From: Muribaculaceae bacterium
GTDB lineage: Bacteria > Bacteroidota > Bacteroidia > Bacteroidales > Muribaculaceae
Assembly: GCA_017453505.1 (NCBI GenBank)
Contig: JAFTEU010000032.1
Span: 1 to 38,324, forward strand
Direction of reading: 5' to 3'
Length of the DNA stretch: 38,324 nucleotides
The translations under genes and the position numbers were made by a program. Under the pieces are notes generated by a model. It saw only the letters and a list, made by a program, of their open reading frames with translations, had not been told where the DNA came from and did no database searches. The first letter of the stretch is position 1. The number at the start of each line of letters is the position of its first letter. Of this stretch, positions 15,934 through 36,128 are shown piece after piece.

Positions 15934-16037
15934 GTTAGGAGTTAGGAATTAGGAATCAGGAATTAGGAATTGGCATCCGCCAACTGACAACTGACAACTA
16001 AAAACTGACAACTGACAACTGACAACTAAAAACTACA
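15934..16037. repeat. Double heptad-repeat array after kbl
   Basis: The array begins at the base after the kbl stop. First part (15934-15974): six 7-bp units of GTTAGGA/ATTAGGA type. After a short spacer, the second part (about 15981-16037) has about eight 7-bp units of CAACTGA/CAACTAA/AAACTGA type. The two parts use roughly opposite strands of a similar core (GTTAG versus CAACT). Confidence 0.8.
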
Positions 16038-16062
16038 ATCATTTTAACACCCAGAGAAAAAA

Positions 16063-17683: not shown

Positions 17684-20266
17684 TTAGAAACTGCCTGTGT
17701 CAGAGTCCTTATTTCGCAGTTTACGATCTATCTTAATATTCTTTCCTGTAGAGAAGTCGTAACTGAAACCGAGGACAAACATCGACTTGTTGTCGTCAAT
17801 CCAGGTTTTATAGGTACTTTGCAGAATGCTGGTCGGCAAGCTGTAGCCTGAATAACGGGAGCGGGTGAAGAGCCAATAGTCAGCGGCAAAGATGCGCAAA
17901 CCCTTCTTTTGCCAGTAAACCTGCAAGTAAGACTGATTCTCTCCGGCATCCAGTGTCGATCCGTCAAGGCGTTTTGACACGATGTTCCCTACATAGGAGG
18001 CACCCCAGTTGCCCTTCCGGAACTGAATGGCATAGTAGAGCGGTGCCCACGTGTGATGGTAGTGTCCAATAATGGGGCTACTGACCGTTTGACGAGAGAC
18101 GTAGCCCTGAATGGCAACCGTCAGCACCTGACTCTTAAAGGGGCTAACGACCAACAGGTATGACCCACCCAGATCACTGCTATAGTTGGCATTTTCGTTT
18201 GTGCCCACAATAAATTGCAGGCCGTTAATCTCTTGCTGTGTATAGTAGCGGTTGATGGGAGAATCGGAATATGAATAGTATAGTCCAACTTGGGTCTGAA
18301 GCCAGCCGAGGTTCCACTTGTGGATAAGTTCCGACCGATAGGTGTTATAACTCTTCAGATACGGGTTGCCAATGCTCAGCACACCAGGAATGACAAGGCT
18401 GGCATTGTTGCTGAGTTGTGAGATGGGTGGTGTGTTCGATTGTGACGAGGTAATCCATTGTAGGCTCATCGTCTTTGATAGATTTGTACTCAGGATGAGT
18501 TTTGGTGTGAAGAGCCAGTGAGAGTCGTGGGCATCAGTATTGTCTTGGGTCACTTGTGTGGCTCCGGCACCAATACGGTACATCAGTTTGCCGAGATTAC
18601 CACTATACTCGGCATACATATAGTGCTGATAACTGGCTGACGAGTATTCATAGTCCTTATAATCTGAGAGCACGTTGCTGATGGTGGCGTTCGAGCGTCC
18701 GAACGATCCACGATAGCCCAGGCTCAGGTTGCTCTTTTCCCATTTCTTCGTATAAGCCAGCTCTCCGATAAAGGAGTACTTGTTGTTCTGCTGCTCTTGG
18801 TTGTCTGACAGCCATACCTCACCGTCGCTGACTGCCGTCTCCTCAGCCCAGTTCTTGCTGTTGTTGTGATAATAGGTGCCCACGAGGTCGATCGACAGTT
18901 CCTGATTCTTCGGCAGTGTTTTCTGGACATATACGTTCAGCTCTGGACCAAATGTGCTCATGCGACTGCCAAATTCACCTTTCCCTGCAACGGTGGGGTT
19001 AAGTGTTGATGTGTTTTGGATATCACTCTGTCCATCGCTATGGCTATGATTGAAATGAGGTGTTGCCACTATCTGTACCGCTATGTCGTCAGATTTGTTG
19101 TAGGTGTACTTAATGACGGGATCGTTCAAAGTATAGCCGAATTTGTCGTGGGTCTTTTTTTGATAGTTGTAATGAACAGGAGATGCGGGTGCTGCGCCGT
19201 CGGTAAGGTACCTTTGCAGTGTATAGTCGTAAGTCCGTTCGCCAAAGCGCTTCGTATAGTTGCGCAAGCTGAACGAATAAGAGAGTGAAAGCTGATGGTT
19301 GCCCGAAGTCAGGTTCAGGTAGGCCTCATCGTCTGTAAAACCCGTCGTGAATGCTGTCCTCGCCTCGATGCCTGCATTGATGCCCGTCTCCATCCGCTTG
19401 GTAATCACGTTGATGAGTGTGCCGGCATCGGCATAGCGGGCAGGAGGAATGTTGTAATATTCTACCTTTGAGATTTTATTGGCAGGAATGCCCTTCAGGT
19501 CAATGTCTGAGGCTGCCAGGCCATTGATGAGTATCTTCACGCTGCCGCCGTCCATGCGCTGAATCTTATTGCTCACCGGATCGATCTTCAAGTCTTCAAC
19601 GTGCTCCAGCAGGTCACGGACATTACGGGCTTGCCTTATTTGCTCAATAGTAAAGGTGTGGACTGACTTATCCACATAGTTCATGATACGGGTACCCTCT
19701 ACTGTTACACCGTTGATGATATACTCAGCAGGTCGCATCTGGATAGTCCCTACATCGCCTGCTTCGCAATGACGATAGTAGGTGCGATAGCCGACAAAAC
19801 TGCACTATACGATGACACGGTAGGCCTCAGTAGGAATCACAAAGCGACCGCTCTCATTACTGACGCCTCCCGTGAGCAGCGTTGAGTCGGCAGGGTTAAG
19901 AAGAGCAATGGTTGCATAGGGTAAGGGATGGCCTGTCTCGTCAATGACGGTGCCCTTGCAGCGCGTGGAGGTCTTTTGCGGGCATTCGACGGCGATGTCC
20001 TTGCCCTGCACGGTCATCTTGATGGGATAGAAACCGATCAACTGCTGGATGGCATCGGGCACCGACTTGTTCTTGACACTGGTCGTCACCCTGAAGTCCT
20101 CCAGATCGTTATAAAGGAAACTGATGTTGTATTCCCCGCCCTGCTCATTGAGCCACTTGAGCGCCTCGCTCATCGACACGTCATTGAACGACCGCGTCAC
20201 CCGCTGCCCATGTAACGGGGTAGCCACAACGAGCATCAGAAATAGATATAGTATTAACTTTTTCAT
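17684..20266 (-). pseudogene. STN/outer-membrane receptor interrupted by an in-frame TAG
   Basis: Two open frames, 19805-20266 (153 residues) and 17684-19738 (684 residues), are one gene in a single reading frame. The first has a signal peptide, an STN domain (about 22-85) and the start of a carboxypeptidase-regulatory-like domain, and stops at TAG (19805-19807). Reading on in frame gives CSFVGYRTYYRHCEAGDVGTIQM, which aligns without gaps to the intact paralogue at 22266 (ITYVGYRPVYRHC, then LGTIKM), the stop falling on an Arg codon there. The rest is an OMP_b-brl_3-type beta barrel. The break is therefore a single nonsense substitution; no frameshift is seen. TAG is an ordinary stop elsewhere here, so recoding is unlikely. 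A barrel fragment might still be made from Met at 19738, but without a signal peptide. Confidence 0.85.
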
Positions 20267-20341: not shown

Positions 20342-20581
20342 ATGGCCGAAGGAATAAACATACCCAATGGAGCATTTTCTCCATTCCAGATGCAGATGCT
20401 GGAATTGGTATCACACGTGCAGTCACAGGAGGAGATGGACGACATTCGTCGTATGCTGGCAGAATACTTTGCTAAACGTGCCGAAGACGAAATCGACCGC
20501 CTGTGGGACAAAGGCATTCTCAATGATGAGGTCATGGAAGAGTGGAAACACGAACACATGCGTACACCATATCGCCAATAA
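20342..20581 (+). CDS. Putative antitoxin of a PIN-domain module
   Basis: A 79-residue protein starting MAEGINIPNG. It is highly charged and helical (EEMDDIRRMLAEYFAKRAEDEIDRL) with a Trp-containing C-terminus, and has no obvious DNA-binding motif. The frame is open upstream to 20285, but the promoter at 20288-20318 requires the 20342 start. Its TAA overlaps the ATG of the PIN gene by one base (TAATG), the tight coupling typical of type II toxin-antitoxin pairs. Such helical partners often occur with this PIN subfamily. The antitoxin role is inferred from order, size and coupling. Confidence 0.65.
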   Translation: MAEGINIPNGAFSPFQMQMLELVSHVQSQEEMDDIRRMLAEYFAKRAEDEIDRLWDKGILNDEVMEEWKHEHMRTPYRQ

Positions 20582-20988
20582 TGAATGTAGTCCTTGACAC
20601 GAACTGCTTGCTGATGTCGCTCTCGCGCCGCAGTCAATACTATCCCGTATGGCGTAGTCTTGTCCGTGGTGAATATGTGTTGTGCTACTCCAATGAGATA
20701 CTCACTGAGTATGAGGAAATCTTGACTCAGAAAATGGGTCCAAGAATTGCAAGCAACATCATTTCGGCCATCCTCAACCTTCCCAATACATTGCAAGTCC
20801 AGGTTTATTTTCACCTGAAGCTGATCCATCAAGATCCAGACGATGATAAATTTGTGGATTGCGCCTTCAAGTCCAATGCTCGTTTCATCGTCACACAAGA
20901 TCATCATTATGATATACTGCGAACTATTAGTTTCCCTAAAATCAATGTGATCGACATTGATAGTTTTATAAAAGAATTGAGTAAATAA
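20581..20988 (+). CDS. PIN-domain toxin (putative toxin of a type II pair)
   Basis: A 135-residue PIN-domain protein beginning MNVVLDTNCL. Acidic metal-binding residues are in place: D6 in LDTN, Glu residues in SNEILTEYEE (39-46), DDDKFVD (87-93) and D107 in VTQDHHY. This matches the family annotated as toxin component, PIN family. PIN toxins are Mg-dependent ribonucleases that often cleave tRNA or rRNA. An upstream in-frame ATG at 20542 would lengthen it, but the coupling to the antitoxin stop and the canonical N-terminus favour 20581. It lies between two degenerate receptor copies and reads against them. Confidence 0.82.
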   Translation: MNVVLDTNCLLMSLSRRSQYYPVWRSLVRGEYVLCYSNEILTEYEEILTQKMGPRIASNIISAILNLPNTLQVQVYFHLKLIHQDPDDDKFVDCAFKSNARFIVTQDHHYDILRTISFPKINVIDIDSFIKELSK

Positions 20989-21010: not shown

Positions 21011-21102
21011 TTCCACCCTCTCGCTGTCGCTGGTGAGAGGGTGGATTGCATTGGGCGATATGTTGAATCCATTACCTGCATGTCGTTGATTAGAGGCGGT
21101 TG
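21011..21102. repeat. 92-bp repeat, copy A (receptor 3' end and hairpin)
   Basis: Differs at about 6 positions from 22187-22278. It contains the last codons of a receptor gene (NRL, stop) and downstream DNA with an inverted repeat CCACCCTCTC (21013-21022) / GAGAGGGTGG (21035-21044), possibly a terminator for the minus-strand receptor. Confidence 0.85.
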
Positions 21103-21347
21103 ATTTCTATCAACTGCTGGATGGCATCGGGCACCGACTTGTTCTTGACACTGGTCGTCACCCTGAAATCCTCCAGGTCGTTATACAGGAAACTGATGCT
21201 ATATTCCCCACCCTGCTCATTGAGCCACTTGAGCGCCTCGCTCATCGACACGTCATTGAACGACCGCGTCACCCGCTGGGCATATACAGGTATTGCAAGA
21301 GAAAAAACGATTAGAAGATATATGAGTTTAAAACGATTCATTATCAT
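21090..21347 (-). pseudogene. Receptor remnant: STN domain joined to the last codons
   Basis: An 85-codon frame with a signal peptide (MNRFKLIYLLIVFSLAIPVYAQ) and an STN domain nearly identical in DNA to those at 20041-20200 and 24585-24745. After QQLI it jumps to EINRL and stop. In the intact receptor QQLI is residue ~80 while the final NRL is residue 846-848, and the DNA beyond this stop matches the DNA beyond the intact receptor (92-bp repeat). The carboxypeptidase-like domain and whole barrel have therefore been deleted internally, leaving both gene ends. A secreted STN-only peptide could still be made, but a function is doubtful. Confidence 0.85.
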
Positions 21348-22186: not shown

Positions 22187-22278
22187 TTCCACCCTCTTGC
22201 CGTTGCTGGTGAGAGGGTGGATTGCATTGGGCGATATGTTGACTCCATTACCTGCATGCCGTTGACTAGAGGCGGTTG
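22187..22278. repeat. 92-bp repeat, copy B (receptor 3' end and hairpin)
   Basis: Partner of 21011-21102. It holds the last codons of the intact receptor and an inverted repeat (22189-22198 with 22211-22220) that may terminate minus-strand transcription. Confidence 0.85.
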
Positions 22279-24812
22279 CGCTCGCTCTGTCCGGCATGGC
22301 TGCCTTTGTAGCGGCTCTTGGTGGCATTGAACTTCCAGGAGAGGTCGATGCCAACGAGGCGGGCATCTTTATACTCGTGGTATTGGGTGCGGAAGTTGAT
22401 GCCGCCATAGGCAATGCGTTCCATTGATTGCGTGTGCAGGATATCCTTGGCAACAAGGGCGACATTCAGACTCTTGTCTTTCAGGAATTGTTTACCCACA
22501 CGCAGGTTGAGGCTTCCACTGGCCTCGGTCTTGCAAGGGCCAGACTCGTTGTAAGGCAAGATGCGTCCATTCACATTCAGGATCCAATCATGGGGAAATG
22601 TGAATGTGTTATCAAGCGAGAACTGGGTAATTAGCCCGTTCCACTTGTGAGTGATGCCTAACGGATAAACATCATCGTTGCAAAAGTAGAGTTCTGCCGA
22701 ATAGTTCATCTGCCAGATGCCCATCTTGGGCGAAAAGTTCAACACAATGCCATAATACTCCTGCTTGGGCGTATTGCGATAGTCCATGATGACAACGCCG
22801 GGATGGTTCACGTCGTCATAGGCCGTCTGGAAAGAACGTATACTGTTCTTGTGGTACTCGTAGAAGACCTCGGCATAGATCCACTTCCATGTGGAAGTCC
22901 AGGTAAAGAAATGGTTAGTCTGTGGCTTCAAAAACGGATTACCTGTGTCATACTCATACTTGCTGCGGTAGTTGACCATGGTGGATAACAGTTGGTAGTG
23001 CGGATTCAATCGGGTAGATCTATAAGCCAACCGATGCTGCCAATTTTCGGTAGTATAGGTGACCGAGAGGAGCGGAATCAGTACGGAATAATCAGGACTC
23101 ATTTCAGCATTATGTTGCTCGTTACTTTCATACTGGTTATACTCGTTCTGCCAGCGCAGGCCAGCATTGATTGAAAATTTGCCCAGTTTTAAGGCGTAGT
23201 TGGCAAAAAGTGACCAAATGTAAGTCTGCTGGCAAACATGGCCATCTGCCGAGAAACCGCTCTGAACGAAGTCCTGGGTGGGATGGACAGAGGAGGCCTC
23301 TTCGCCAAAGGTCAATTCGCCCTTGGGAACAGGTGCCGTGAGGATCAGTTTCTCGGCCAACAGACGATCATTGGAGTTGGTTTGGCTACTGACGGTGGTC
23401 GAGCCCTCGGTGCCGCCTTCCATCTCTTTAAGAGAGGCTGACTGATAGAAATCTGCACTGAAGTCGATGTTCCACTTGCCGACATTCCCAACGTAGTAAG
23501 CATTCAGCGTGTGGCTCATGCGTGGCTTATCTACCGTATTGGTCATGCTGTGGCCTCCATCAACGAGGATGCCGTCACGCCATGTCTGCTCGTCCATCTC
23601 GCGACGGGTGAGACTGTTACCGATGTAATTGAAGGCTGTATAGGTAAGACCCACCGAATGGTGTTCATTAATTTCCCAGTTCCAGCCAAGGTCGGCAAAG
23701 TAGTACTTCACCTTGAAAAGCCACGAGGGTTCTTTCTGGTAATCCCATGTGGAGGAGGCCTGCAATTGATCCTGGGATGTTGCATCAATCCTCGTATTGT
23801 TCTGGGTCAAGTAACCACGGGCAAAGAAATCCATGCCGCTATGGGTGCGGTAGTTGATTGCAGCATTGACGTTGGTATAGTTTTCTTTGCTCCTGCGGTA
23901 GGCTGCCGAGAAATTGCCACTCCATCCATCTCCCACCTTGCGCACGGTCTTCAGGCGGATGACAGAAGTCACATCGGCACCGTATTCGGGGCCTGGATTG
24001 GTGATGATCTCTGCCAACAGGATTTCATCGGCACGATAGCGGTCGAGTTCGGCCTTGTTGCGCACTTTCTTGCTATTGATGTAGATTTCGGGGGTGCCAT
24101 GACCAGCAATCTTGCCGTCACTCATCATTAACGGAAGGTGAGTCAGCATCTCGGTGACCGAGCCGAATTGTTCCAATACAGTGCCTTGAACATTGGCCAG
24201 CAGGCCACGATCGGTGGGGCGGACAAGTTGCTTGGAACCCTTGACGGTGACACTCCCCAGGGCATATTGGTCGGGCTGCATCTTGATGGTGCCCAGGTGG
24301 GGCGACTTGCAGTGGCGATAGACGGGGCGGTAGCCCACGTAGGTGATACGGGCCAGCACACCGCTCTGCTCACAGGGGATGACAAACAGGCCACTCTCGT
24401 TGGTCACGCCACCAGTAATCACCGTTGAGTCGCGCGGCGAGAGCAACGCGACGTTGGCGTAGGGCAACGGCTGGCCCGTCTCGTCGATGACGGTGCCTTT
24501 GTAACGAGTCGCTTCACGCAGGGGGCATTCCACGGCGATTTCCTTGCCCTGAACCGTCATCTTGATGGGATAGAAACCTATCAACTGCTGGATAGCATCG
24601 GGCACCGACTTGTTCTTGACACTGGTCGTCACCCTGAAGTCCTCCAGGTCATTATACAGGAAACTGATGCTATATTCCCCACCCTGCTCATTGAGCCACT
24701 TGAGCGCCTCACTCATCGACACATCATTAAAATTGTGCGACACCCGCTGGCCAAAGGCAGCCGTGGCGATGCACAGGCATGCCACGAGATAAATCAAACG
24801 CCTCGCCATCAT
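22266..24812 (-). CDS. Outer-membrane receptor with STN and carboxypeptidase-like domains
   Basis: An 848-residue receptor: signal peptide (1-21); STN domain (about 25-85), which in signalling transporters contacts the anti-sigma factor; carboxypeptidase-regulatory-like beta domain (about 98-185); a plug-like region (TDRGLLANVQGTVLEQFG onward); and an OMP_b-brl_3 barrel from about 290 to the end. Its ATG overlaps the FecR-like stop by 4 bases (ATGA), so it is the last gene of a sigma/FecR-like/receptor operon for cell-surface signalling. Ligand unknown; no SusD partner is present. It is the intact member of a three-copy local family (see 17684 and 21090), whose STN-coding DNA is almost identical between copies. 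Confidence 0.88.
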   Translation of the reverse strand: MMARRLIYLVACLCIATAAFGQRVSHNFNDVSMSEALKWLNEQGGEYSISFLYNDLEDFRVTTSVKNKSVPDAIQQLIGFYPIKMTVQGKEIAVECPLREATRYKGTVIDETGQPLPYANVALLSPRDSTVITGGVTNESGLFVIPCEQSGVLARITYVGYRPVYRHCKSPHLGTIKMQPDQYALGSVTVKGSKQLVRPTDRGLLANVQGTVLEQFGSVTEMLTHLPLMMSDGKIAGHGTPEIYINSKKVRNKAELDRYRADEILLAEIITNPGPEYGADVTSVIRLKTVRKVGDGWSGNFSAAYRRSKENYTNVNAAINYRTHSGMDFFARGYLTQNNTRIDATSQDQLQASSTWDYQKEPSWLFKVKYYFADLGWNWEINEHHSVGLTYTAFNYIGNSLTRREMDEQTWRDGILVDGGHSMTNTVDKPRMSHTLNAYYVGNVGKWNIDFSADFYQSASLKEMEGGTEGSTTVSSQTNSNDRLLAEKLILTAPVPKGELTFGEEASSVHPTQDFVQSGFSADGHVCQQTYIWSLFANYALKLGKFSINAGLRWQNEYNQYESNEQHNAEMSPDYSVLIPLLSVTYTTENWQHRLAYRSTRLNPHYQLLSTMVNYRSKYEYDTGNPFLKPQTNHFFTWTSTWKWIYAEVFYEYHKNSIRSFQTAYDDVNHPGVVIMDYRNTPKQEYYGIVLNFSPKMGIWQMNYSAELYFCNDDVYPLGITHKWNGLITQFSLDNTFTFPHDWILNVNGRILPYNESGPCKTEASGSLNLRVGKQFLKDKSLNVALVAKDILHTQSMERIAYGGINFRTQYHEYKDARLVGIDLSWKFNATKSRYKGSHAGQSERNRL

Positions 24813-26141: not shown

Positions 26142-27964
<1,823 letters not shown>

Positions 27965-27968
<4 letters not shown>

Positions 27969-28018
27969 ATATTCTAGATTATCTAGATTAACTAGATTAA
28001 CTAGAGTGTCTAGAAAAA
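27965..28018. repeat. Six-unit CTAGAnnnn array (9-bp period), copy 1
   Basis: CTAG starts at 27965, 27974, 27983, 27992, 28001 and 28010, exactly 9 bases apart, each followed by A. Units: CTAGATATT, CTAGATTAT, CTAGATTAA (twice), CTAGAGTGT, CTAGAAAAA. The first unit contains the exporter stop codon; the last ends 10 bases before the candidate ECF promoter of the sigma gene at 28091. Confidence 0.9.
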
Positions 28019-32429: not shown

Positions 32430-32801
32430 ATGGATACTACAAGACAACAGAAAATCAGCCGCCTGGTGCAGAAGGAACTCAGCGAGATCTTCCGCCGCGA
32501 GACCGCCAAGACACGAGGCACCCTGGTCACCGTGAGCAGCGTTCGCGTGTCGCCCGACCTGAGTGTGGCTAACGTGCGCTTGAGCATCTTCCCCAGCGAG
32601 AATGCCCAGGCCATCATGGACAACATCAACCAGAACGAACGCGGCATCCGCCACCAGCTCGCCCAGCAGACGCGTTACCAGCTGCGCCGCTGCCCCGAGC
32701 TCAAGTTCCACATCGACGACTCCCTGGACTACATCGACCACATCGATGAACTCCTCGCCAAGGACAAGAAATCCGAGAGCTCCGAGAACTCTGAGAACTA
32801 A
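32430..32801 (+). CDS. rbfA: Ribosome-binding factor A
   Basis: A 123-residue protein with the RbfA fold: QQKISRLVQKELSEIFRRE at the N-terminus, then VSSVRVSPDLSVANVRLSIF, RGIRHQLAQQTRYQLRRCPEL and the closing FHIDDSLDYIDHIDELL. RbfA is a KH-type protein that binds the 30S subunit during 16S rRNA 5'-end maturation and cold adaptation. Length is typical, with a short charged tail. The permease gene begins 2 bases after its stop, a gene order I recall as common in Bacteroidales. Its promoter is fronted by the second CTAGA array. Confidence 0.92.
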   Translation: MDTTRQQKISRLVQKELSEIFRRETAKTRGTLVTVSSVRVSPDLSVANVRLSIFPSENAQAIMDNINQNERGIRHQLAQQTRYQLRRCPELKFHIDDSLDYIDHIDELLAKDKKSESSENSEN

Positions 32802-32803
32802 CC

Positions 32804-34030
32804 ATGAGCCTTCCGTTGAAGATAGCGTGGCGCTACCTGGTGTCCAAGAAGGGGCATCAGGCAGTGAACATCATCTCGATAGTCGCCGTGTGCGGTGTCG
32901 TGGTGGCCACGGCCGCACTCATCTGTGTGCTGAGCGTGTTCAACGGATTCCGTGGGCTCATCATGGGCAAGCTGGCCATGCTTGACCCGCAGGTGGCCAT
33001 CACTGCGGCTATGGGCAAGACCATCAACGATGCCGACAGTGTCATTGATGCCATCAGTGCCATTCCGGGGGTGGAACGCGCTGTCCCCGTCATCGAGGAC
33101 CAGGCACTGGCCATTTACGCCCAGATGCAGATGCCCGTGCGTCTCAAGGGTGTCCCCGATGACTACAACACGATGAACGACATGGACTCGGTCATCGTTG
33201 ACGGCACCTGGAAACTGCGTGACGAGGTGTCGCGCTATGCCGTGGCCGGGGCAGGGCCTGCTGTGAGGCTGATGGTGAGACCCGAATTCCTGGGCATGGT
33301 GCGGCTGTATGCGCCACAACGGCAAGGCCGTGTCAACATCGCCAACCCGATGGGTGCCTTCAGGCAGGACTCGGTGTTCGTGTCGGGTATCTTCCAGCTG
33401 CAGCAGAACAGCTATGATGCCGACCTGATCTACATTCCGCTCGACATGGCGCGCGACCTGTTCGACTATGATAGCGAGGCGACACAGGTCGAGGTGAAGC
33501 TGCAAGCCGGAGCCGATGAGCAGCAAGTGATGCGACACATCACTCAATTGCTGGGCAACAGCTACCAAGTCAAAAACCGGCTGATGCAGCAACGCGAGGC
33601 ATACCGTCTTGTCAACATCGAGAAGTGGATGGCCTTCCTGCTGCTGGCCTTCATCCTCGTGATCGCCACGTTCAACGTCATCAGCACCCTGTCGCTTCTC
33701 ATCATCGAGAAGGACGAGAGCATCGCCACACTGCGGGCACTGGGTGCCAACGACAGCCAGATCTCACGCATCTTTGTCCTGCAGGGCTGGCTCATCACCC
33801 TGGCTGGTGCCGTCACCGGTATCGTCATCGGCCTCGTGCTGTGCCTGTGCCAGCAACAATTCGGTTTGTTGCGCCTCAGTGGCGACCCAGCCAATATGAT
33901 TATCAGTGCCTATCCCGTTGAGGTGCAATGGAGTGACGTACTCGTCACCCTTGCCCTTGTAGCCGCAGTCGGCCTGCTAACCAGCATGGTTACAGCCCTG
34001 ATCATGCGCCGCCGCCTCACATCAAACTAA
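32804..34030 (+). CDS. FtsX-like ABC permease (LolC/LolE-like)
   Basis: A 408-residue permease: first helix at about 20-45 (INIISIVAVCGVVVATAALICVL shortened here in description to its core AVCGVVVATAAL), a large periplasmic domain (about 50-265), then three helices near 275-300, 320-350 and 375-400. This is the MacB/FtsX topology of the LolCE complex that hands lipoproteins from the inner membrane to LolA. The N-terminal LPLKIAWRYLVSKKG matches LolC/E proteins. The partner ATPase is not in this window. It is translationally close to rbfA (2-base gap). Its stop codon lies in a heptad array. Confidence 0.85.
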   Translation: MSLPLKIAWRYLVSKKGHQAVNIISIVAVCGVVVATAALICVLSVFNGFRGLIMGKLAMLDPQVAITAAMGKTINDADSVIDAISAIPGVERAVPVIEDQALAIYAQMQMPVRLKGVPDDYNTMNDMDSVIVDGTWKLRDEVSRYAVAGAGPAVRLMVRPEFLGMVRLYAPQRQGRVNIANPMGAFRQDSVFVSGIFQLQQNSYDADLIYIPLDMARDLFDYDSEATQVEVKLQAGADEQQVMRHITQLLGNSYQVKNRLMQQREAYRLVNIEKWMAFLLLAFILVIATFNVISTLSLLIIEKDESIATLRALGANDSQISRIFVLQGWLITLAGAVTGIVIGLVLCLCQQQFGLLRLSGDPANMIISAYPVEVQWSDVLVTLALVAAVGLLTSMVTALIMRRRLTSN

Positions 34031-34059
34031 CAACTAAAAACCAACAACTAAGAACAACA
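34025..34059. repeat. Five 7-bp repeats between the permease and MaoC-like genes
   Basis: Units AACTAAC, AACTAAA, AACCAAC, AACTAAG and AACAACA run from inside the last codons of the permease gene to 2 bases before the MaoC-like ATG. The permease stop TAA is in the first unit. Confidence 0.7.
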
Positions 34060-34061
34060 AT

Positions 34062-34523
34062 ATGCTTACTATCAACTCTTACGAAGAATTTGCCGCCCAC
34101 CTGGGCGAAGAACTCGGTGCCAGCGAGTGGCTCACCGTGGATCAGGACCGTATCAACATGTTTGCCGATGCCACGCTCGACCACCAGTGGATCCACGTGG
34201 ACGTGGAGCGCGCCAAGGCCGAGAGTGCCTACCACAGCACCATCGCCCACGGCTACCTCACCATGTCGCTGATTCCCCACCTGTGGAACCAGATCATCGA
34301 CGTGCACAACATCGACATGCAGGTCAACTACGGCATGGACAAGATGCGCTTTGGCCAGCCCGTCATCACCGGCAGCCGCGTGCGCCTCGTGACCAAGCTG
34401 CACAACATTGCCGACCTGCGCGGCATCTGCAAGGCCGAAATCGAATTCAAGATGGAAATCGAGGGTCAGCGCAAACCCGCCTTGAGCGGCATCGCCTCGT
34501 TCCTGTACTACTTCAAGAAATGA
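34062..34523 (+). CDS. MaoC-like hot-dog dehydratase
   Basis: A 153-residue hot-dog-fold protein. The catalytic region FADATLDHQWIHVD (about 31-44) has the Asp/His arrangement of MaoC-type (R)-specific enoyl-CoA hydratases, followed by ESAYHSTIAHGYLTMSLIPHLW. Single-domain length matches the family. Likely reaction: hydration of trans-2-enoyl-thioesters; the true substrate is unknown. Its TGA overlaps the aroQ ATG (ATGA), so the two are translationally coupled, although they are not in the same pathway. Confidence 0.85.
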   Translation: MLTINSYEEFAAHLGEELGASEWLTVDQDRINMFADATLDHQWIHVDVERAKAESAYHSTIAHGYLTMSLIPHLWNQIIDVHNIDMQVNYGMDKMRFGQPVITGSRVRLVTKLHNIADLRGICKAEIEFKMEIEGQRKPALSGIASFLYYFKK

Positions 34524-34948
34524 ATATCCACATCATCAACGGCCCAAATCTGAACCTCGTCGGCCTGCGCGAGCCCGAGGTCTATGGCAACCGTTCGCTG
34601 GACCAATACCTGCGGGAACTGATTGAACAGTTCCCGCAGCACACCATCGATGTGTACCAGAGCAACATCGAGGGCGAGATTGTGGACCGTCTGCAAGAGG
34701 TGGGCTTCGACCAGGATAGCGGCGTCGTGCTCAATGCCGGCGGCTACACCCACACGTCGGTCGCCATCGCCGATGCAGTTGCAGCCATCACCGCCCCCGT
34801 GGTCGAGGTACACATCAGCAACATCTATGCCCGCGAGCCTTTCCGCCACAAGTCATTGTTGTCACCCGTCTGCCAGGGCATCATCGCCGGCTTCGGCCTC
34901 GATAGCTACCGCCTAGCCCTCCACTCCTTCATTATCAAACAACCTTAA
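34520..34948 (+). CDS. aroQ: Type II 3-dehydroquinate dehydratase
   Basis: A 142-residue enzyme of the shikimate pathway (3-dehydroquinate to 3-dehydroshikimate). NGPNLNLVGLREPEVYG (about 7-23) holds the catalytic Arg and Tyr, NAGGYTHTS is at about 72-80, and the catalytic His is in VEVHISNIYAREPFR (about 96-110), all hallmarks of the dodecameric type II enzyme. The frame is open far upstream, but MNIHIINGP at 34520, coupled to the MaoC-like stop, is the standard start. Its last codons fall in the ACAAC array that borders the GxxExxY gene. Confidence 0.93.
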   Translation: MNIHIINGPNLNLVGLREPEVYGNRSLDQYLRELIEQFPQHTIDVYQSNIEGEIVDRLQEVGFDQDSGVVLNAGGYTHTSVAIADAVAAITAPVVEVHISNIYAREPFRHKSLLSPVCQGIIAGFGLDSYRLALHSFIIKQP

Positions 34949-34973
34949 CAACTGGATAGACAACTATAACAAC
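34939..34973. repeat. ACAAC array, left side of the GxxExxY gene
   Basis: ACAAC starts at 34939, 34948, 34960 and 34969 (spacing 9, 12, 9). It spans the aroQ stop and ends 5 bases before the next ATG. Its first 17 bases (ACAACCTTA, ACAACTGG) recur in inverted orientation at 35431-35450 with a 3-base insertion. Confidence 0.7.
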
Positions 34974-34978
34974 TCTTT

Positions 34979-35419
34979 ATGTTTGATCTTAAAGAAGAAA
35001 AAAGGAAATTTTTTGATATCATCGGCGTCATTCATGAGGTTCACAAGTATTTGGGGCCGGGATTGAATGAGTCATGTTATCAAGAGGCAATGGAATTGCA
35101 ACTGAAAAATGACGCAATTCCATATCAGCGAGAGATGACATTCCATCCGACATACAGGGGTATTACACTTCAAGCCACGTTCCGCATTGATTTCCTATGC
35201 AAGAATGATATTATTGTGGAATGCAAATCAGTTCCCGAGTTCAGTCCCAACCATAGGGCCCAGTTATTTAACTACATGCGATTATTAGAAAAACCATGTG
35301 GCATATTGGTGAATTACCTACCAGGATATGCTGAAATTGAGCGTTATCTCTATGATAAGGAAACGAAGAACATCTTGGGAATGGATGGTCGCATTATTAA
35401 AAACTTTATTGACATTTAA
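34979..35419 (+). CDS. GxxExxY protein (PD-(D/E)XK nuclease-like)
   Basis: A 146-residue protein. The defining motif is GLNESCY (G-x-x-E-x-x-Y, about 28-34) after IIGVIHEVHKYLGP. FRIDFLCKNDIIVECKS (about 66-82) looks like the D-x(n)-ExK core of PD-(D/E)XK nucleases, with Asp in RIDF and E-C-K in VECKS. The biological role of the family is unknown. Codon use is clearly more AT-rich than in the flanking aroQ and methyltransferase genes, suggesting transfer. It is bracketed by inverted short-period arrays (34939-34973 and 35425-35487), so it may be a small mobile cassette. Nuclease activity is inferred from motifs only. Confidence 0.85.
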   Translation: MFDLKEEKRKFFDIIGVIHEVHKYLGPGLNESCYQEAMELQLKNDAIPYQREMTFHPTYRGITLQATFRIDFLCKNDIIVECKSVPEFSPNHRAQLFNYMRLLEKPCGILVNYLPGYAEIERYLYDKETKNILGMDGRIIKNFIDI

Positions 35420-35424
35420 TATCA

Positions 35425-35487
35425 GTTGTGCCAGTTGTTATTAAGGTTGTTAATGTTGTCTGAAAAAATCAAAGTTGTCTATGTTGT
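35425..35487. repeat. GTTGT array, right side of the GxxExxY gene
   Basis: GTTGT starts at 35425, 35434, 35446, 35455, 35474 and 35483 (spacing 9, 12, 9, 19, 9), beginning 5 bases after the GxxExxY stop. The first four copy the 9-12-9 spacing of the left array in inverted orientation. The downstream ATG (35481) lies inside the array. Confidence 0.7.
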
Positions 35488-36128
35488 CTGAGAAGAATGA
35501 GGAGTTAGAGGAGTATATTTTGGGGCATATTGATGAGGAGCCAGCGGCGCTGGCCCGCATCGACCATGATACCCATGTGCAGAACTATTACTGGCACATG
35601 TGCTCGGGACACCTGCAGGGACGGCTCATCAAGATGCTGACGCGGATGATCGGGCCCAGGCGTGTGCTGGAGCTGGGCACCTTCAGCGGCTACTCGGCAC
35701 TATGTCTGGCCGAGGGGCTAGCCGATGACGACTGCCTGGTCGACACCATCGAGGTCAACGACGAGCAGGAGGACTTCATCCGCGAACACCTGGCATTGTC
35801 CCCCTATGGCCAGCGTGTGAGGCTCCACATCGGTGACGCACGTGACATCGTCCCCACACTGGGCGGACACTATGACCTGGCCTTTATCGATGCTAACAAG
35901 CGACAGTATGTCGAGTACTATGAGCTGGTGATGGAGTACCTCAAGCCAGGCGGATTTATCATCGCCGACAACACACTGTGGGCCGGCAAGGTCGTCGATC
36001 CTAAAGCGCAGCGCGAGGCTCAGACCCGCGGCATCCTCGCCTTTAACGACCGTGTCAAGCAGGACGACCGTGTCGAGCGGGTCATCATCCCCTTGCGTGA
36101 CGGGCTGACCCTTATCCACAAGCTATAA
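35481..36128 (+). CDS. Class I SAM-dependent O-methyltransferase
   Basis: A 215-residue methyltransferase of the caffeoyl-CoA/catechol O-methyltransferase type. Motif I is VLELGTFSGYSALCLAEGL (about 60-78), the acidic residue after strand 2 is in DTIEVND, and DLAFIDANKRQYVEYYE plus GGFIIADNTLWAGKV (about 135-170) carry the metal-binding Asp/Asp/Asn set of this family. Length is typical. Acceptor unknown. The TTG at 35475 could also start translation, but the ATG at 35481 is preferred; both lie in the GTTGT array. A convergent terminator follows at 36133. Confidence 0.87.
   Translation: MLSEKNEELEEYILGHIDEEPAALARIDHDTHVQNYYWHMCSGHLQGRLIKMLTRMIGPRRVLELGTFSGYSALCLAEGLADDDCLVDTIEVNDEQEDFIREHLALSPYGQRVRLHIGDARDIVPTLGGHYDLAFIDANKRQYVEYYELVMEYLKPGGFIIADNTLWAGKVVDPKAQREAQTRGILAFNDRVKQDDRVERVIIPLRDGLTLIHKL

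Follow-up and report, generated by a model that had tools for sequence, protein, structure and literature searches.

We studied a small gene of the GxxExxY family located between aroQ and an O-methyltransferase gene in a Muribaculaceae bacterium (contig JAFTEU010000032.1; the whole stretch of 38,324 nucleotides that was analysed is called the window here). This locus is probably a gene-bearing copy of a mobile family of small DNA elements, REPIN/RAYT-like in its organization and built on an unrelated nuclease. The element would consist of two inverted arms, each made of a few iterated units (mostly 8-10 nt), placed around the GxxExxY gene or around a short loop; the gene-less forms are called minis below. 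It looks like a type of selfish DNA that has so far not been described; mobility, binding and cleavage are what we infer.

Organization of the locus

The gene was bracketed by ACAAC iterons on the left and by GTTGT iterons on the right (Table 1), and both series had the spacing 9-12-9. The initial annotation had reported these inverted arrays, and their positions were confirmed, as was an inverted pair within them (34939-34955 against 35431-35450, with a 3-base insertion). None of 5000 shuffles produced a mirrored array of four 5-mer copies, and in a scan of 3763 window positions a single one had it, the GxxExxY locus itself. The inverted-arm score of the two 110-nt flanks was 34, as compared with 31 or less in 5000 dinucleotide shuffles. 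The gene had also been described as AT-rich, and its GC content was indeed 38.1%, against 58.3% in aroQ and 58.0% in the O-methyltransferase gene. As for the cassette proposed between these two genes, the order of the parts holds but its ends overlap the host genes: the left array starts within aroQ, whose C-terminus and stop codon (34946-34948) are encoded by the first part of the left arm, and the right end reaches the O-methyltransferase gene, the likely ATG of which (35481) lies inside the second copy of the right end.

Table 1 Features of the GxxExxY locus and of related arrays in the window
Feature	Position	Strand	Remarks
aroQ, type II 3-dehydroquinate dehydratase, left host gene	34520..34948	+	NF003807 5.1e-56, PF01220 6.3e-54
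Left arm	34935..34974	+	TCAAACAAC end and ACAAC iterons at 34939, 34948, 34960, 34969; from inverted alignment
GxxExxY protein gene, 146 aa, PD-(D/E)XK fold	34979..35419	+	TIGR04256, PF13366
Right arm	35424..35463	-	GTTGT iterons at 35425, 35434, 35446, 35455, ending GTTGTCTGA; inverted counterpart of left arm
Second copy of right end	35468..35494	-	81% identical to 35440-35466; GTTGT at 35474, 35483
O-methyltransferase, right host gene	35481..36128	+	PF01596 5.2e-45
Gene-less mini, two inverted arms, loop of 5	27949..28016	.	Other unit (TCTAGATTA, period 9)
Period-7 arrays without gene, TTAGGAA then CAACTGA	15935-16038		Like TIGR02436-family arrays
Period-7 array without gene, AACTAAC	34024-34060		Like TIGR02436-family arrays

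Other 9-bp arrays had been mentioned in the window. Tandem Repeats Finder placed arrays of period 9 at 27964 and 32767, but those at 15935, 15981 and 34025 had period 7. These neighbouring arrays carry units other than ACAAC, and the period-7 ones resemble the arrays of the TIGR02436 family (see below). The 9-nt array at 32767-32799 (AGAACTCCG) is the 3' end of gene 32430-32801, which we take to be RbfA, and it encodes an SSENSEN tail. Farther to the left, one N-terminal segment, presumably STN-like, is repeated three times (19805-20266, 21090-21347 and 22266-24812), and among the other ORFs between the segment copies is gene 20542-20988, presumably PIN-like.

The GxxExxY protein

The window protein matched the profiles TIGR04256 (3e-34, 117.9 bits against a cut-off of 35) and PF13366 (1.5e-30, 106.4 bits against a cut-off of 22), the only matches in Pfam and NCBIfam scans, which returned no transposase domain. 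The residues of its GxxExxY motif are G28, E31 and Y34, and a putative active site was located in conserved columns at D71 and E81-x-K83. The AlphaFold2 model (pLDDT 93.9) showed a PD-(D/E)XK fold, so that the PD-(D/E)XK-like core first suggested is supported by profile matches, conserved columns and model. The catalytic residues were conserved: among 191 copies with 95 aa or more and no stop codon, the GxxExxY motif was intact in 188 and the D...ExK core in 187. Broken copies of the gene with stop codons also occurred. With the window protein as query, seven of 72,556 plasmid records carried a match, all of them predicted non-mobilizable, and none of 50,697 phage records did.

Mirrored arms at other GxxExxY loci

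At least one GxxExxY match was found in 55 of the 61 genomes of the genus; there were four such genes in the window genome and up to nine per genome. For the related genomes, 93 of 100 rows were kept, corresponding to 91 loci after two split genes had been merged, and 87 of these had flanks long enough to be scored; two fragments at contig edges were excluded, as were, for falling below the cut-off, a further fragment and four rows of a single genome (G040). The arm score was the best inverted match between the left and right flanks of a locus. Its median over the 87 loci was 42, versus 19 for flanks of mismatched loci (n=2175) and 18 when positions were shifted inside each locus (n=333). Of the 87 copies, 51 scored above the 99th percentile of the mismatched pairs, as did one of the 333 shifted controls; 36 copies did not exceed it, and a few (L014, L034, L030, L088 and L018) lacked clear arms. 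Matches in direct orientation were near their control (median 21 versus 19).

Chance or low complexity as the source of the arms was ruled out by the shuffles, the mismatched pairs and the shifted controls. That the locus is an ordinary AT-rich spacer with short tandem repeats, its inverted match being a low-complexity by-product, is accordingly very improbable: the reversed-pattern control was low for ACAAC (see below), and the inverted match, not the direct one, rose far above its controls. Short arrays are nevertheless common in these genomes, and the direct score was higher than the inverted score in 19 of the 87 copies, with two ties. The direct-orientation excess at one locus (L001) was explained by a neighbouring mini when its flank was read.

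The layout extended beyond the close relatives. Of 30 loci read among the matches from the wider Bacteroidota, 29 were usable; 15 of these scored above the 95th percentile of the mismatched pairs, and the median was 31 versus 20. A further set was composed of 80 named loci, out of at least 585, from 18 phyla; 48 of its 77 usable loci exceeded all 275 shifted controls (maximum 29), and those 48 span 15 of the 18 phyla. The units at these loci (L184-L263) were mostly of the CACAGAG or CGCAAAG type. Because most of the 77 loci share one unit type, mismatched pairs also scored high (95th percentile 35, 99th percentile 44, against the set's own median of 37), and only the shifted controls separated well. 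The single archaeal locus (L199) presented no mirrored arrays. A tree of the 80 loci had few supported branches and does not decide on transfer between phyla. Flanking inverted arrays are thus enriched at other GxxExxY loci, in related genomes and across phyla, so that the first refuting outcome named in the initial annotation, a lack of such enrichment, does not apply. The self-bounded cassette of that annotation is well supported, since most of the other copies that were examined show its layout, with units specific to each locus.

Repeat units and protein lineages

The units seen at related loci included ACAAC, GACAAG, AATACAAG, CGCTAAG, CACGAATG, CGAATT, CAGATT and ACATAAG, and CACAGAG was also among the units that differed from copy to copy. 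In the related genomes the most frequent period was 9 (42 of 72 arms), followed by 8 and 10; in the named loci from 18 phyla it was 8 (22 of 51 arms). The A-rich strand of the unit was located 5' of the gene in 55/74, 13/17 and 43/51 cases in three GxxExxY sets; that it always lies there is contradicted by these counts.

In a tree of the 87 proteins the copies tended to cluster by unit and less by chromosomal site. Protein identity and arm similarity were correlated in pairs of copies from different sites (Spearman 0.22; 72 loci, 2468 pairs), above the maximum of 0.147 in 500 permutations, although related species are not independent and the figure is uncorrected for kinship. The median arm score of such pairs was 14 at protein identity below 0.5, 20 at 0.5-0.6, 23 at 0.6-0.75 and 41 at 0.75 or more (nine pairs). 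The nine copies at the aroQ site were rejected as one clade (p-AU 0.009); at the second site tested, one clade was not rejected (p-AU 0.094). Copies of the GACAAG/AATACAAG type from two sites grouped together (support 91/84.8, not starred). Two genomes, G021 and G024, had near-identical copies at three other sites (protein identity 0.92, 0.95 and 0.96), with L014/L034 as a fourth near-identical pair. Their copies at aroQ were of different types (arm score 21 at a protein identity of 0.60), and so were those at the second site (16 at 0.62). Unit and protein therefore co-vary, and the unit tends to follow the protein lineage more than the chromosomal site.

Gene-less arrays and minis

The aroQ site was compared in 30 of the 55 matching genomes. 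In 25 of these the aroQ gene was at least 81% identical to that of the window, and 19 of the 25 loci had the GxxExxY gene; the six without it comprised four short arrays or hairpins, one remnant and one rearranged neighbour. The five more distant aroQ loci were four with aroQ near the methyltransferase gene and no arrays, and one (L123) with an array and no gene. At another site (that of L046) the GxxExxY gene was present in none of the 23 other species read; these had hairpins there, of GAATT or as other minis, arrays of the ATCCGTTTT type or of period 7, or nothing. At a third site (L008/L012), a mini was nested within a mini in nine of the 24 species read; the inner one was of the GAATT type in eight of them and of the ACAAC type in the ninth (G060). 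Gene-less minis thus exist, and they differ between species at one and the same site. In 288 kb of the window genome, window included, there were 33 inverted pairs versus four in one shuffle, and six or seven of the 33, judged by eye, were gene-less hairpins of period 8-9.

Three-unit ACAAC arrays reached 69 per genome, with 17 at most for the reversed pattern, and in many genomes they far outnumbered the GxxExxY genes. They were commoner in genomes with an ACAAC-type gene copy (p 0.0006, 11 versus 14 genomes), and the reversed-pattern control leaned in the same direction (p 0.07). The presence of a GAATT-type copy did not go with more GAATT arrays in a genome (p 0.23), and for some genomes the reversed GAATT control gave high counts (as many as 24, in G067; in G000 it gave 8, versus 0 for GAATT itself). 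The initial annotation had suggested that the protein may act on such arrays or generate them. For an action on the arrays, support comes from the co-variation of protein and unit and, for the ACAAC unit, from the number of arrays per genome; the GAATT comparison was not significant, and the action itself is something that we infer. That the protein generates arrays is speculative.

Adjacent arrays of opposite orientation were convergent in 21 cases and divergent in one, as counted over 71 listed places in two genomes that were entered by hand after merging overlapping matches. Six minis read in one genome (G041) had the ends TCAAACAAC and GTTGTTTGA, resembling the left end in the window. In another (G005), at least seven of 13 minis lay within a larger repeat, so that their ends were blurred; a gene-bearing copy there (L363, G005:C112) had beside it a mini that was repeated in tandem together with its flank. 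Reading 19 mini flanks by eye revealed no evident target-site duplication. Gene-less arrays, initially listed as evidence against a cassette, do exist; many of them, however, are mirrored hairpin minis.

At six loci (L265, L266, L267, L276, L277 and L289) the right end of a mini read in open frame into the next, exported-looking protein, and the same read-in was seen at L283 and L290 beside another gene. The arms encode a hydrophobic stretch in such fusions, for example SIYCTYCLPF, and from their reading frames minis may be a source of signal peptides for adjoining genes.

Selection, orientation and expression

Twelve same-site pairs were named for the selection test, of which four were skipped for unequal core length. 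All eight scored pairs had dN/dS values of 0.00-0.15, that is, the gene is under purifying selection. Such strong selection at conserved sites fits a resident useful gene as well. In that alternative, the nuclease would bind the flanking iterons for self-control or for recognition of foreign DNA, and the gene-less arrays would be decayed remnants that never moved. Besides purifying selection, the persistence of the gene at one site, in most of the aroQ loci of at least 81% identity, and a weak Cas4-like similarity agree with a resident module. This reading does not account for the large excess of ACAAC arrays over genes in many genomes, for minis, some of them nested, at sites without the gene, or for the different lineages found at one site in different species, and a regulator does not need a mirrored array behind its gene. 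We consider it quite unlikely.

Orientation relative to the host genes was biased. Both neighbours were co-directional with the GxxExxY gene in 58 of 73 genus copies, the remainder being mixed or uncalled, and both were opposite to it in none or one, depending on slightly different stretches. In 51 of 62 cases the upstream stop codon fell in the interval from 60 nt before to 20 nt past the point where the left arm starts. Given these neighbours and the position of the stop codon, the GxxExxY gene probably depends on transcription of the host operon.

DNA sites or RNA stem

The co-directional arrangement is also a feature expected of an element acting in RNA, in the manner of the intervening sequences of 23S rRNA: the arms would pair in the transcript, a ribonuclease would cut the stem, and the gene would be excised or its expression set. 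The window transcript folded with paired arms (z -2.45, one of 100 shuffles as low), and the layout is shared by the TIGR02436 family (see below). However, G-U-compatible arm mismatches were not in excess at 142 GxxExxY loci (203 versus 198, p 0.84), the linkers between the ACAAC cores of the window were only partly complementary, and gene-less minis are abundant. The G-U asymmetry in 22 four-helix-bundle loci likewise gave no signal. The absence of G-U bias in the arm mismatches favours DNA sites over an RNA stem. The RNA-level reading is weakened and we regard it as unlikely, but retain it as a rival in view of the orientation bias and the window fold, which both point to RNA.

Mirrored arrays around TIGR02436 genes

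Genes of the four-helix-bundle family TIGR02436, whose relatives are known from 23S rRNA intervening sequences, had the mirrored-array layout in the same genomes. In the 30 loci read among the matches (L124-L153), 29 of them usable, the median arm score was 39, versus a control median of 18 and a control 95th percentile of 30. The period was 7 in 17 of 22 scored arms, the A-rich strand was 5' of the gene in 7 of 22, and both neighbours were co-directional in 19 of 22 genus copies. Some of these genes had a GxxExxY gene no more than a few kb away (G001:C66, G008:C96 and G036:C400). Since two unrelated proteins share the layout and differ in period, the comparison suggests that array period reflects the protein.

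A broader reading is possible, if somewhat doubtful: a general parasite class of iteron-bounded operon elements in which the GxxExxY nuclease and the four-helix-bundle protein would each propagate their own unit as mirrored arrays. The unit would then be a recognition code co-evolving with the protein, and the CACAGAG/CGCAAAG arrays in many phyla would be traces of this class.

Proposed mechanism and implications

No movement of the elements was observed. For the mobile family that we favour, the PD-(D/E)XK protein would recognise the unit of its own lineage at the DNA level, and the nuclease would cut or nick at the units. Repair or replication could then copy the arm-bounded DNA, either the full element or a mini, into other intergenic sites, among which would sometimes be the loop of a mini already in place. 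The GxxExxY gene would be expressed by read-through from the host operon, a reliance that would account for the direction shared by most copies with the adjacent genes.

If true, this would give a likely role to a nuclease-like family known by little beyond a sequence motif, and an origin to the short tandem arrays common in intergenic DNA. The natural variants of protein and unit, taken together, would tabulate the DNA specificities of a PD-(D/E)XK protein of very small size. Host genes, too, have parts of the elements at their ends, as with the stop codon in the window and the apparent leader peptides in relatives.

Comparison with known systems

A search of the open-licence PubMed Central literature yielded no description of mirrored arrays around GxxExxY genes, which does not imply their absence from print; the portions covered of PMC8934634, PMC10910872, PMC5524665, PMC3733652, PMC2817692 and PMC8049555 do not describe them.

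The closest PD-(D/E)XK nucleases named were Cas4 (SSO0001, 4ic1), lambda exonuclease and the Hjc resolvase. Like a homing endonuclease gene, the nuclease gene could spread by cutting gene-less alleles; in contrast to such genes, the arrays stay on both sides of the GxxExxY gene, and arrays without the gene are present at other places. A small ORF between inverted repeats is likewise found in the intervening sequences of 23S rRNA, but their four-helix-bundle protein is unrelated, and the arrays of the TIGR02436 family have period 7, whereas that of the GxxExxY arrays is mostly 8-10. The GxxExxY element lies in an operon spacer (aroQ/O-methyltransferase) and not in rRNA, and an Rfam scan of the window found no match above the gathering score. 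A G-U pairing signature was not seen in its arms, although the window transcript is predicted to fold with the arms paired. With IS elements and MITEs it shares terminal inverted repeats, gene-bearing and gene-less forms, and nesting. It differs from them in that Pfam and NCBIfam revealed no transposase domain (DDE, HUH, or tyrosine/serine recombinase) and in that its gene is mostly oriented in one way with respect to the adjoining genes. At the 19 mini flanks read by eye, target-site duplications were not apparent.

REPINs are described as dispersed short paired inverted repeats found mostly downstream of genes, with several types per organism; the REP palindromes measure 20-40 bp and bear a GTAG or CGTC tag, and a RAYT gene can be flanked by REPIN-type repeats (PMC3733652). 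The likeness lies in dispersed, gene-less paired inverted repeats in intergenic DNA that are related to the arms flanking a gene. The differences are that the GxxExxY protein is of the PD-(D/E)XK type whereas RAYT is a tyrosine (HUH, Y1) transposase, that the GxxExxY arms are iterated units of mostly 8-10 nt and REPs are single GTAG-tagged palindromes, and that the GxxExxY unit changes between lineages, several of which are present in one genome. In our best reading, the element would be most like a REPIN/RAYT pair, yet with another class of enzyme and another type of repeat.
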